A DNA stretch of 64,000 nucleotides from Armatimonadota bacterium (GTDB lineage: Bacteria > Armatimonadota > Fimbriimonadia > Fimbriimonadales > Fimbriimonadaceae). This document shows positions 2,312 through 17,334 of this stretch, in pieces. Where the stretch lies: NCBI GenBank assembly GCA_016223145.1, contig JACRPN010000009.1, positions 1 through 64,000 on the forward strand, read 5' to 3'. The translations under genes and the position numbers were made by a program. The notes under the pieces are model-generated. The model was not told where the DNA came from. It worked only from the letters and a program-made list of their open reading frames with translations, and ran no database searches. Every line of letters begins with the position of its first letter. The stretch's first letter is position 1.

Positions 2312-2349
2312 GGACTACGAGCCCAAGTGAAGCATAGGAAGGGGGTTCC

Positions 2350-2382
2350 AACCCATGTAGCCCAGGCGTCTCGCCTGGGTAA
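2350..2382. repeat. REP-like palindrome, left flank of RAYT
   Basis: The core is an 8-bp stem with a 3-nt loop (CCCAGGCG, TCT, CGCCTGGG at 2361-2379). The 33-nt block matches the reverse complement of 3139-3171 at 31 of 33 positions, so the transposase gene sits between two inverted copies. Confidence 0.8.
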
Positions 2383-2467
2383 CTTCGTCGAGGCATCGTA
2401 TAGCTTACTCCTTCCCTTTCGGTGCGACCGTGCAGGAGCCCCTTCGCGAGCGTCAGAATCCTAATTC

Positions 2468-3091
2468 GTGTCTGAGCCCAGATACTTGAACTTTTCAATA
2501 GAAGGCCCGGCGAAGCGCCGACGCAAGCTTCCTCATTGGGAGGCTGACGGCGTCGTGTATTTCATCACCTTTCGTCTGGCCGACTCCATGCCGAAAGAAG
2601 TACAAGAGCGCGCTAAAGAGTACAAACAGATCCTCGATCGGGTCCGAAAGATCGGTACAGCCGAAGACATCTCACGAGCGGAGCGCGAACTCCTCCGATA
2701 CGTCGAGAAACACCTGGACGCAGGCTACGGAAACTGTATCTTGAAGACGCCTGGAGCTTCACAAATCGTCTGGGAAGCACTTCACTTTGGAGAGGGGTCC
2801 GGGCATCATCTCTACGCTTGCGCTGTGATGCCGAATCACGTACATGCCGTGGTCTCCCTTGAGCCTGACCTAACCTTGGACAGACTCACCCATTCTTGGA
2901 AGTCCTACTCGGCGCACAAAATTAACGCGACGCTCGGAAGGTCGGGCAGGCTTTGGGAGCCAGAGAGCTTTGACCACATCGTCCGCACCCCGGCCGCCCT
3001 TCAGCGATTTGTCCGGTACGTTGCCGAGAACCCGCGCAAAGCGGGTCTCTCGAATTGGGAATGGGTCTTTCCTAGCTTGGACGCGACCTGA
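2468..3091 (+). CDS. REP-associated tyrosine transposase (RAYT, IS200-like Y1)
   Basis: This 207-residue protein matches the Y1 transposase/RAYT family. It has an N-terminal WEADGVVYFITFRL block, the HUH metal-binding motif (His124 and His126 in MPNHVHAVV), a candidate catalytic tyrosine (Tyr147 in SWKSYSAHKIN) and the family's C-terminal RYVAENPRKAGL. RAYTs cleave single-stranded REP hairpins and are thought to spread them. The GTG start at 2468 directly precedes the conserved N terminus. Inverted REP copies flank it on both sides within 120 nt, the typical RAYT arrangement. The frame is intact, so the protein may be active. It is a single-copy domesticated-type transposase rather than a full insertion sequence. 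Confidence 0.9.
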   Translation: MSEPRYLNFSIEGPAKRRRKLPHWEADGVVYFITFRLADSMPKEVQERAKEYKQILDRVRKIGTAEDISRAERELLRYVEKHLDAGYGNCILKTPGASQIVWEALHFGEGSGHHLYACAVMPNHVHAVVSLEPDLTLDRLTHSWKSYSAHKINATLGRSGRLWEPESFDHIVRTPAALQRFVRYVAENPRKAGLSNWEWVFPSLDAT

Positions 3092-3138
3092 CAAAGCTTA
3101 GATCATGTTGTGGTGAGGCTTACGGTCAGGTGGTGAAA

Positions 3139-3171
3139 TTGCCCAGGCGAGACGCCTGGGCTACATGGGCT
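3139..3171. repeat. REP-like palindrome, right flank of RAYT
   Basis: The stem CCCAGGCG / CGCCTGGG (3142-3160) has loop AGA and is followed by GGGCTACATGGG. It is an inverted copy of 2350-2382. Degenerate GGGCTAC repeats continue to about 3205. Confidence 0.8.
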
Positions 3172-3258
3172 GGGCTACGTGAGGTGGGCTACATCGGCTG
3201 GGTTTCGGTCGATGGTTGTTTCTCTGGGAACATCGTTGCTAAGCAAAGGGCCCGAGTC

Positions 3259-13702: not shown

Positions 13703-16249
13703 ATGCCCGAAGCGCGGACTTGGAACGCCAATTGGATCGGCTATCACAAAGACCCCAGAGAGGACCTCGGCGTGTTCGCCTTTCGTCGCCGACTCGACCT
13801 GGCGAAGGCGCCCCAAAGCTATCTGATCCGCGTCTCTGCCGATCAGCGCTACAAGCTCTACGTCAACGGCGAGCTCGTCGGCTTTGGGCCGCAGCGCGGC
13901 GACGAGCTGCATTGGTTCTATGAGACGTATGACCTGGCGCCGTTTCTGAGAAAGGGCGAGAACTGGATCGCGGCGCTCGTTTGGAATTTCGGGCGCTGGG
14001 CGCCGATGGCGCAGCACACGGTGCGCACGGCTTTCGTACTGGAGGCCGACGCCTCAACCCTTTCCGAGAAGGGCAAAGACCCGATCACGCCGGAAGCGCC
14101 GCTCCCCGAACCGGAAAGCGGTAAGCGCAGCACGCTCGATATCTCCACGCCGGACGGTTGGGAGGTCTATCGGATCGATGGTTGGAGCTTCGACATGATG
14201 CACGCTGGAGTCGGCGAGTATTACATCGACGTCGGACCCGGCGAGATCATCCAATCGGGCTACGAAACGCCCAAGCTCACGAATCTCGCGCCCAAGGAGC
14301 CCGGAAAAGGGCTGGATTGGAAAAAGCCCCATGTCATCCACCATGCCCAAGACCGCGGCGCGAACGGCGGCGGCACGCCCTGGATGCTGATCCCGCGGAG
14401 CCTTCCTCCGATGAAGTATGAGCAGCGCGTCGAGGCCCCCAGGGTCCGGCGCGGGTTTGCAGGAGACGTTGAGGGAGGTGAGTTCAAGGATGGGGAACCA
14501 CTTTGGGGCCCGGATAAGATGGGGCAAGACAGGAAGCTGGTTCTGACCCCCGATCGTCCCCTGCTGCTGGACTATGGCGAACTGCTCACCGCCTACCCCA
14601 GGCTCTTCCTTTCCTGCGAGGGCGATGCGGAGGTCACCCTGACCTACGACGAGGGGCTATGGGCGCCCGATGGGTCGAAGGGTAATCGCAACGAGGTTGA
14701 GGGCAAGGAAAGCCGAGGGTATCAAGATAAGTTCCTTGTGAAAGGCTGGTCGGAGGTTTTTGAACCGCTCTGGTGGCGGACCTATCGGTACCTGAAGATC
14801 GAGGTTTCTTTGGGAGTGCGCGAGCTTGCTCGCGCTTTGGACGATAAGGGATCTGACGGTGATGGAGAAAGCGCGAGCAAGCTCGCGCACTCCCAAAGAG
14901 CGCACTCCCAGAGCGGGGTGGTTCTCTATTCCATCGACGCGATCGAGACCGGCTACCCGCTCAAGGCGGAGTCGTCGTTTGAGGCGGACGACCCGTCGGT
15001 CAAGCCGATCTGGGACGTCGCGATCCGCACCGCCGAGCGGTGCGCCGGGGAGACCTACTTCGATTGCCCCTACTATGAGCAGCTCCAATACGCAGGCGAC
15101 ACGCGCATCCAGGCGCTCATCGGCTACTACTTGGGCCGCGACCGGGCGCTGACGAGAAATGCTGTGGAGACGCTCGGCTGGTCGCTGATGGACAACGGCC
15201 TGACGCAGTCGCGCTACCCCAGCCGCCAATGCCAGGTCATCCCGCCGTTCAGTCTGTGGTGGGTGATGATGGTGTGGGACCAGTTGCTATACGACGACCC
15301 TTCGGCTCTGCCGGACTTCGTTTCATTCCAGACTCTGAGTAGGATATTGGGCCGATTCAGGAAGATGGCGAAGGAGCCAGGGCAGTTCTGGCAATTCGGA
15401 GATTGGGTTCCCTCTTGGCGTTGGGGAGTGCCGCCTGGAGGAGCCCAAGCGCTGATGCACCAGATCACGCTGGAGATGGCGACGACGGCCGCGGAGAGGA
15501 TCAAGGGATTTCTGGAGGTTGGCGAAGCCAAGAGGCGAGGAATCAAGTTCTGGCAGAGCTGGCCGCGAACGAGCCAATGGTGGACCGGCGACGGCGGCTA
15601 TGAGAATGCGCTCGCCAACAACCCCAAGAAAGGTGTTGACAACGCGCCGTCAGAGCATGCTGAGGCACTCCTCCGCGTGCATCATGCGATGTACGATTAC
15701 GACCTTGTGGGGAGTGATCCCTGGCCCACCGAGGCCCTCGCCAAGGCCAACGCCGCCAAGTGCACCTACTACTTCAGCTACTACAAGCACCTGGCGATGT
15801 TCGGGCGGCCGGTGGAGGGGATCGCCGGGTCGGGCCAGTCGGACAAGTCAGACAAGTCGGACAGGTCAGACGGGAGAAAGGCCCCCTACCCCTTCGACTA
15901 CCTCCAGGAGCTTCAGCCTTGGAAGGAAATGATCGAAAACGGCCTCTCCACCTTCGCCGAGAACCCCGAACCCACGCGCTCGGACTGCCACGCCTGGAGC
16001 GCGCACCCCATCCTCGGGTTCTTCCAGATCGTCGCCGGAGTGACCAGCACCGCGCCCGGCTGGAAGAAGGCGCGAATCATGCCGCATCCCGGCTCGCTGA
16101 GGCGCTTCGACGCCAAGATCGCCCATCCGGATGGCGAGCTGCGCGTCAAGTGGGAGGACGGCCGCTTCACCATCGACTCGCCGATCCCGTTCGAATTCCG
16201 ATGGATGGGTAAGCGCGAGGAGCTGGAAGCGGGGAAACATAAGCTGTGA
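13703..16249 (+). CDS. Alpha-L-rhamnosidase-like glycoside hydrolase (GH78-type), with repeat insertions
   Basis: An 848-residue protein with GH78-like layout. N-terminal beta domains (RVSADQRYKLYVNGELVGFGP, YETYDLAPFLRKGEN) precede an (alpha/alpha)6 barrel region (ETYFDCPYYEQLQYAGDTRIQ) and a C-terminal beta domain (GWKKARIMPHPGSL). The acidic residues around FDCPYYEQLQYAGDTR are the likely catalytic region. No signal peptide: cytosolic. Two stretches look foreign: residues about 369-399, encoded by a 31-bp inverted repeat, and SDKSDKSDRSD (about 713-723), encoded by four 9-nt repeats. Both keep the frame. Its TGA overlaps the gnd GTG start. Confidence 0.85.
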   Translation: MPEARTWNANWIGYHKDPREDLGVFAFRRRLDLAKAPQSYLIRVSADQRYKLYVNGELVGFGPQRGDELHWFYETYDLAPFLRKGENWIAALVWNFGRWAPMAQHTVRTAFVLEADASTLSEKGKDPITPEAPLPEPESGKRSTLDISTPDGWEVYRIDGWSFDMMHAGVGEYYIDVGPGEIIQSGYETPKLTNLAPKEPGKGLDWKKPHVIHHAQDRGANGGGTPWMLIPRSLPPMKYEQRVEAPRVRRGFAGDVEGGEFKDGEPLWGPDKMGQDRKLVLTPDRPLLLDYGELLTAYPRLFLSCEGDAEVTLTYDEGLWAPDGSKGNRNEVEGKESRGYQDKFLVKGWSEVFEPLWWRTYRYLKIEVSLGVRELARALDDKGSDGDGESASKLAHSQRAHSQSGVVLYSIDAIETGYPLKAESSFEADDPSVKPIWDVAIRTAERCAGETYFDCPYYEQLQYAGDTRIQALIGYYLGRDRALTRNAVETLGWSLMDNGLTQSRYPSRQCQVIPPFSLWWVMMVWDQLLYDDPSALPDFVSFQTLSRILGRFRKMAKEPGQFWQFGDWVPSWRWGVPPGGAQALMHQITLEMATTAAERIKGFLEVGEAKRRGIKFWQSWPRTSQWWTGDGGYENALANNPKKGVDNAPSEHAEALLRVHHAMYDYDLVGSDPWPTEALAKANAAKCTYYFSYYKHLAMFGRPVEGIAGSGQSDKSDKSDRSDGRKAPYPFDYLQELQPWKEMIENGLSTFAENPEPTRSDCHAWSAHPILGFFQIVAGVTSTAPGWKKARIMPHPGSLRRFDAKIAHPDGELRVKWEDGRFTIDSPIPFEFRWMGKREELEAGKHKL
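14808..14898. repeat. Paired palindrome with 31-bp perfect inverted arms, inside a gene
   Basis: Arm 14808-14838 is the exact reverse complement of 14868-14898, with a 29-nt spacer. Each arm itself contains a hairpin, GCGCGAGC-TT-GCTCGCGC. A partial third copy (GCGCACTCCCAGAG) follows to about 14915. The block is translated in frame in the GH78-like gene. Confidence 0.9.
15838..15873. repeat. Four 9-nt repeats encoding Ser-Asp-Lys/Arg units
   Basis: GTCGGACAA, GTCAGACAA, GTCGGACAG and GTCAGACGG in tandem. The same unit, also four copies, occurs at 16387-16422 in the next gene. Confidence 0.8.
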
Positions 16250-17334
16250 GCACGTTCGCGATTATCGGCCTCGGCCGCATCGGCGGCGGCCTGGCGATGC
16301 AGGCTTTGGAGAAGGGGCATCGGGTCGTCGGGCTGGATGTGGCGGGGGCTTCTGAGGAACTGCTGAAGGCCGGGCTGGTTGAGGCTTCGGACCTGTCGGA
16401 CCTGTCGGACAAGTCGGACCCTTCACTCGGACCCCGCATCATCTTCCTCTACATCCACGCCGGACCTGCGGTGGACGAGGAGCTGGCCAAGCTCGCCGAG
16501 CACCTGAAGCTCGGCGACATCGTCCTCGACGGCGGCAACTCCTATTGGGGCGACTCCAAGGTCAGGGCGGCCCGCATGGCCAAGAAGGGCATCCGCTTCC
16601 TCGACCTCGGCACCAGCGGCGGACTCTCCGGCGCGCGAAACGGCGCTTGCTTCATGTGCGGAGGCGAGAAGTCGGCGTTCAACGCCGTCGAGCCGATCCT
16701 CAGGGACCTTGCGGTTCCCGGCGGGGTGGTCTATGCCGGACCCTCCGGCTGCGGCCACTACGTCAAGCTCGTGCACAACGGCATCGAGTTCGGCATGCTC
16801 CAGGCCATCGGCGAGGGGATCGACCTGCTCGAGCAGTTTCCCGAAGATCTTCCGATCGCCGACGTGGTGGGCTGTTGGCGCAACGGCTCGGTGGTCCGGT
16901 CCTGGCTGGTGGACCTGATGCACGAGGCGCTGTCCGGTCCCCCCTCCCTTGTTTTTGCCGAAGGCGAAAATGAGGGAGGGGTTGGGGGAGGGAGACCTAT
17001 CCCCGACCAGGCCGCCCGGAACCTCCACCCCCAACCCCCTCCCCCTATCGCATCCCGACAAGGGGAGGGGATTCTCAACTCCACTCCCGGCTTCATCGAG
17101 GACACGGGGGAAGTGAACTGGCTGGTCGAGGACGCCCTCAGGATGGAGGTGCCCATTCCGGTCATTTCGGCTTCAGTCATGCAGCTCTTCGCCTCGCGCG
17201 ACGACCGCCGCGCCTGGGCTCGCGCGATCGCCCTCATGCGGAGAGGGTTTGGCGGACACCCTTTGGGACGCATGCCCGCGCTGGGGGAGGAGCGGCGCAT
17301 ATCGAAGGTGGGTCTTCGTGAAGGGGAAGCATAG
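16246..17334 (+). CDS. gnd: 6-phosphogluconate dehydrogenase (decarboxylating, short type), with repeat insertions
   Basis: A 362-residue GND protein of the short (about 300-residue) NAD-type class: IGLGRIGGGLA dinucleotide motif, LDGGNSYWGDS, GTSGGLSGARNG, and the catalytic Lys in GHYVKLVHNGIE. It converts 6-phosphogluconate to ribulose-5-phosphate. GTG 16246 overlaps the stop of the GH78-like gene. It is about 60 residues longer than usual because of two repeat-derived segments: SDLSDLSDKSD (residues about 48-58) and about residues 232-280, rich in Pro/Gly. The family sequence resumes at GFIEDTGEVNWLVEDAL, so the enzyme may still be functional. Confidence 0.88.
   Translation: MSTFAIIGLGRIGGGLAMQALEKGHRVVGLDVAGASEELLKAGLVEASDLSDLSDKSDPSLGPRIIFLYIHAGPAVDEELAKLAEHLKLGDIVLDGGNSYWGDSKVRAARMAKKGIRFLDLGTSGGLSGARNGACFMCGGEKSAFNAVEPILRDLAVPGGVVYAGPSGCGHYVKLVHNGIEFGMLQAIGEGIDLLEQFPEDLPIADVVGCWRNGSVVRSWLVDLMHEALSGPPSLVFAEGENEGGVGGGRPIPDQAARNLHPQPPPPIASRQGEGILNSTPGFIEDTGEVNWLVEDALRMEVPIPVISASVMQLFASRDDRRAWARAIALMRRGFGGHPLGRMPALGEERRISKVGLREGEA
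16387..16422. repeat. Four 9-nt repeats encoding Ser-Asp units in gnd
   Basis: TCGGACCTG twice, TCGGACAAG, TCGGACCCT. It is the same repeat type and copy number as 15838-15873 in the neighbouring gene. Confidence 0.8.
16940..17085. repeat. Composite palindromic insertion in gnd
   Basis: A hairpin with arms CCCCTCCCT (16941-16949) and AGGGAGGGG (16973-16981) and an imperfect inner stem is followed by GGGGTTGGGGGAGGG and, 60 nt on, a matching CCCCCAACCCC tract. The block ends at about 17085 where gnd homology resumes. It is about 145 nt long and open in the gnd frame. Confidence 0.75.

Follow-up and report, generated by a model that had tools for sequence, protein, structure and literature searches.

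An inverted pair of GGAG-tagged REP elements read in frame within a GH78-like gene of an Armatimonadota bacterium

The GH78-like gene and its inverted repeat

The window, i.e. the whole stretch of 64,000 nucleotides that was analysed, derives from an Armatimonadota genome (the host genome, G000: 3.87 Mb, 23 contigs, assembly completeness 97%). It contains a gene for a GH78-like enzyme, whose product displays Pfam rhamnosidase domains and also matches Rhamnosidase B (PDB 2okx); the frame is open and conserved family motifs are found on either side of a perfect inverted repeat. The features of the locus are:

13703 to 16249, plus strand: host gene, GH78-like (alpha-L-rhamnosidase-type) enzyme, 848 aa, intact frame
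14807 to 14838, plus strand: REP arm 1, TCTTTGGGAGTGCGCGAGCTTGCTCGCGCTTT; tag GGAG at 14813-14816, hairpin at 14818-14835
14839 to 14867, no strand: spacer between the REPs, 29 nt; length and sequence vary among copies
14868 to 14899, minus strand: REP arm 2, identical to arm 1 in inverse orientation, with its hairpin at 14871-14888
14900 to 14913, minus strand: truncated tail of a third REP, which reads CTCTGGGAGTGCGC as its reverse complement and lies 15 nt outside arm 2
14810 to 14914, plus strand: extra coding segment of about 35 codons, residues L370-S404, with edges uncertain by 1-2 codons

The arms are 32 nt each and 100% complementary, with 29 nt between them; the original prediction had described a perfect repeat with this spacing, and only its arm length (31 nt) and limits (14808-14898) required correction. 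Among the short-spaced perfect inverted repeats of the window this is the longest, the maximum in 20 window shuffles being 13 nt. Each arm is a 30-nt REP, composed of a GGAG tag, an 8-bp stem and a 2-nt TT loop; it self-pairs as GCGCGAGC-TT-GCTCGCGC, with a computed energy of -8.9 kcal/mol as single-stranded DNA, in agreement with the earlier description of each arm as a hairpin in itself. At the RNA level the segment with the inverted pair has a predicted fold of -71.8 kcal/mol (z = -9), which makes the very stable mRNA hairpin that had been anticipated a computed one. The REP consensus contains a stop codon in none of the six frames, and no tRNA is found near the inverted repeat. No target-site duplication of the kind expected for a classical MITE is apparent in the flanks as read from the occupied sites.

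At the protein level, the boundaries L370-S404 were set from codon positions. Matches of the GH78-like protein in related genomes repeatedly end near residue 366-373 and restart near 400-414, and the REP-derived segment is present in 0/14 aligned orthologs, the nearest of which share only about 57-75% protein identity, a comparison made at the protein level. In 13 of them no comparable segment exists at all; the remaining one, from genome G013, has a different segment (ELTPPPSPLPASGEGE...) at the same turn, and the DNA that codes for it is an unrelated repeat rich in C and G. The encoded residues had been said to have no match to the family, and a homologous protein segment shared with orthologs on unrelated DNA, the finding that would have spoken against an inserted element, was not encountered: most orthologs lack a segment and that of G013 is unrelated. 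In the AlphaFold2 model (mean pLDDT 81) the insert lies between strands 359-370 and 406-417, as a block with pLDDT of about 49. The insert is most likely a tolerated flexible loop and not a functional domain.

The same region of the window contains other small repeats: short in-frame tandem repeats coding for SDKSDKSDRSD-type stretches occur at about 15825-15865 and at 16373-16419, and this stretch of the GH78-like gene, around residues 700-729, is absent from the orthologs. Similar repeats are present in a C14 gene, together with NPKSAIRNPQS-type repeats in C14 and C20 genes.

Copies of the repeat in the host genome and in relatives

A genome-wide REP search had been proposed as a check. With a generic REP pattern, 29 half-sites were found in the host genome and none with the reversed control pattern; the census consists of pattern searches, which may miss divergent copies. 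Most copies occur as plus-then-minus pairs, 47-98 nt apart: two inverted tagged palindromes with a spacer, repeated in the genome, are a REP pair of the REPIN or BIME type, and the earlier reading of the arms as a BIME-like pair holds, since identical REPs recur as inverted pairs and flank a gene for a REP-associated tyrosine transposase (RAYT). Away from the RAYT gene there are seven pairs, five of which lie in frame within protein genes:

window 14807-14899: GH78-like gene, in frame
C5: uvrA, in frame
C20 (46430): mtaB/miaB-type radical-SAM methylthiotransferase gene, in frame
C14: esterase/hydrolase-like gene, in frame
C20 (71604): 861-aa frame without Pfam match, in frame

The copy at C9:241589 was considered as a further intragenic case; its 305-aa frame has no Pfam match and it was treated as intergenic, as was the copy at C5:83313. 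All five REP-bearing frames are otherwise open, and all five pairs are read in one phase, giving LGVR(E/G)(L/Q)ARA ... SA(S/G)K(L/P)AHSQ; the chance of five pairs sharing one phase is 0.012, a post hoc value for a single genome. This common phase, the other intragenic pairs, the cognate RAYT and the partial third tail go beyond the original prediction. Palindromic elements in frame within protein genes are also a feature of the Rickettsia palindromic elements (RPE). The REP segment is missing from the UvrA and MtaB-type proteins encoded by relatives in the same genus, and UvrA of genome G006 has an unrelated palindrome where the host UvrA has the REP segment. The unrelated palindromic DNA lies at about 2515-2620 of locus L041 for the GH78-like ortholog of G013, and at about 2220-2330 on the minus strand of locus L195 for UvrA of G006.

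Two further arrangements were observed. In 9 of 16 REP pairs, among them each of the five intragenic pairs, one end has a half-REP tail (TTTGGGAG or close to it) 12 or 15 nt further out (window 14900-14913; loci L001, L008, L010, L016, L071, L072, L117 and L123). It was considered as a target-site signature and set aside: it accompanies 9/16 pairs, but its one-sidedness is statistically not strong. Moreover, at C14:218275-218507 (L152, L153) there is a cluster of REPs in direct repeat, with the same tag and the stem GCGCTGGC-TT-GCCAGCGC.

The exact REP occurs in 3/291 genomes of the phylum, belonging to three genera of one family, and identical copies also lie at non-genic sites and, in another genus, in intergenic DNA. 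Genome G015, which has the same REP, contains 54 half-sites at no more than one mismatch, and several of its frames span REPs; these were considered as intragenic copies, but the examined frames that match known families carry no REP within the matched domain, and none of the G015 copies is counted as intragenic.

The RAYT clade and its tag

PF01797 matches occur at 12 places in the host genome. One of them, at C8:238208-238498, has members of the window REP family on both sides, and its product is 58% identical to an intact 192-aa protein of genome G033, from another genus, whose gene is flanked by the exact REP. Members of this clade conserve the HuH motif and a single Tyr motif, as in RAYT-type transposases; NCBIfam REP_Tyr_transpos matches 16/16 aligned members, with the G033 protein at 75.5 bits against a curated cut-off of 80, and the best match among solved structures is 4er8 (TnpA-REP). 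A REP-associated tyrosine transposase gene is thus flanked by the palindrome. The clade is present in 8/9 genomes with the REP vs 14/76 others (Fisher p = 5e-5, indicative since the genomes are related). The host gene contains an in-frame TGA upstream of the conserved tyrosine, at a position where relatives mostly have W or R; as read from its sequence, the host RAYT (C8:238043-238564, L077) is probably inactive or mis-sequenced, and the REP family may now be immobile in the host lineage, unless the assembly lacks a further, intact RAYT copy or the TGA arose in sequencing.

Most RAYT loci of the clade are flanked by palindromes of the form GGAGT - stem - loop - stem - T. Across 18 RAYT-flanking REPs, GAGTGC and GCT are invariant, as are G6, A7, G8 and T9, with G5 nearly so; the CT step at the 3' foot is also invariant. 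Six of the eight stem pairs change on both sides, in rows that were picked as hairpins, their 100% pairing being partly by construction. The tag is GGAG and not the canonical 5' tetranucleotide GT[AG]G (PMC3686654), and the family is filed as a REP/REPIN variant for this reason.

Origin of the insert and relation to known REP systems

In the reading that we prefer, with a probability of about 0.92, the GH78-like gene has received a REPIN as an insertion. The recurrence of the REP at unlinked loci, its position beside RAYT genes, the constant tag with covarying stems, the co-occurrence of REP and RAYT clade, the orthologs without the segment and the low-confidence loop of the model speak for it; the non-canonical tag, the TGA in the host RAYT, the distance of the nearest orthologs and the half-REP tail at one end, for which this reading does not account, speak against it. 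TnpA-REP of E. coli acts on single-stranded REP, which it cleaves at CT steps next to the hairpin, guided by the tag (PMC8266576). By analogy, the RAYT, with its HuH motif and single tyrosine, would recognise the GGAG-tagged hairpins as single-stranded DNA, cut at the CT dinucleotides at the REP feet and join a REPIN copy into the GH78-like site; most insertions within genes would then be lost, while in-frame ones in surface turns or linkers would survive selection.

The strongest of the competing explanations, itself very improbable, is that the encoded peptide (LGVRELARA...SASKLAHSQ) is itself under selection, as a functional loop or tag that has spread to several proteins. It would account for the single reading phase of the five intragenic pairs and for their otherwise open frames; however, the arms are identical in DNA, third codon positions included, unchanged copies are found away from genes as well, and between the genes of another genus, the spacer peptides differ between copies and the segment is of low confidence in the structure model. 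The phase used avoids Cys and Trp, so that simple tolerance explains it, and the unrelated palindromes that fill the same turns in G013 and G006 point to tolerance at permissive sites rather than to a function of the peptide. Even less probable is a regulatory RNA element, kept for an effect on the transcript by pausing, attenuation or mRNA processing: the predicted hairpin is very stable, but this stability is a consequence of the inverted pair itself, the position is mid-gene in a translated frame, no Rfam family is reached at gathering score (the matches are to generic models of long microRNA hairpins and fall far short of the gathering scores) and the sole terminator-like match, at 14903-14920, lies close to the chance level (one match, with 0.4 expected).

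The two remaining accounts appear the least probable of all, to the same degree. Construction of the repeat in place by local duplication or gene conversion, without a transposase, could yield identical arms and agrees with the partial third tail; it is already disfavoured, however, by the same REP at unlinked loci, in other genera and adjoining RAYT genes. As between the recent insertion and the gene conversion that the original prediction had offered as alternatives, recent insertion is favoured, since arms of one and the same sequence recur at several unlinked loci around spacers that differ; conversion is the less supported. Finally, the insertion might have inactivated the gene, or the repeat might be an assembly artefact, since the assembly is in 23 contigs and inverted repeats can be misassembled; yet the frame is open over 848 aa, conserved family motifs flank the insert, and the element recurs at several loci whose spacers differ, as well as in genomes that were assembled independently.

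As a REPIN that was probably mobilised by a RAYT, the element can be set beside the systems already known, namely the REPINs and RAYTs of Pseudomonas (PMC3116915) and the BIMEs and TnpA-REP of E. coli (PMC8266576). Common to these and to the window family are two inverted REPs with a short spacer, further dispersed copies and a cognate HuH/Tyr1 transposase gene that has these REPs on either side; the window family differs in its GGAG tag, instead of GT[AG]G, and in its few copies. The location also differs: 5/7 pairs away from the RAYT are intragenic in the host genome, whereas Pseudomonas REPs are almost all extragenic, with only 14 of the 1,067 most abundant 16-mers of strain SBW25 overlapping genes (PMC3116915). 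Intragenic REPs of the GTAG and CGTC types were reported in 2013, as pairs within protein genes that typically add 20-30 residues; uvrA is among their targets, two recB genes are hit at about the same site, and GTAG ends often give a TAG stop to neighbouring frames (PMC3733652). The window family resembles them in its presence in protein genes, uvrA included; conversely, it has a different tag, belongs to a different phylum, is read in one phase in five out of five cases and, for two gene families, occupies a turn that holds an unrelated palindrome in an ortholog. The Rickettsia palindromic elements, as described in PMC3733652, are palindromic repeats in frame in unrelated protein genes; the window family resembles them by this description and is not assigned to them, and, set against them as described there, it has an associated RAYT.

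Intragenic REPs are thus of a known kind, and for repeats of this sort insertion into coding sequence is documented, though uncommon; what is new is a GGAG-tagged REP family that can be read in six frames, is mostly intragenic in this genome and has unrelated palindromes at the same turns in relatives. A limited literature search found no report of REPs for the phylum Armatimonadota. GGAG is unable to supply a TAG stop, and the family may be easier to tolerate inside genes. A wider proposal, which we regard as improbable, is that a RAYT/REPIN lineage whose tag lacks the TAG stop of GTAG, with REPs open in six frames, spread in this host mainly through protein genes and repeatedly gave rise to loops at permissive turns, which in relatives are hit by unrelated palindromes too. 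These short mobile palindromes add peptide segments to conserved enzymes, a DNA-repair protein included; the RAYT clade with its altered tag offers a testable recognition pair, and the natural set of proteins with the same peptide at different turns is useful for asking how proteins gain loops.

A second, different REPtron is also present in the window at 2348-3173: a RAYT-like frame (PF01797 match at 2795-2971, HVH motif) sits between inverted GTAG-tagged palindromes, GTAGCCCAGGCG-TCT-CGCCTGGG.
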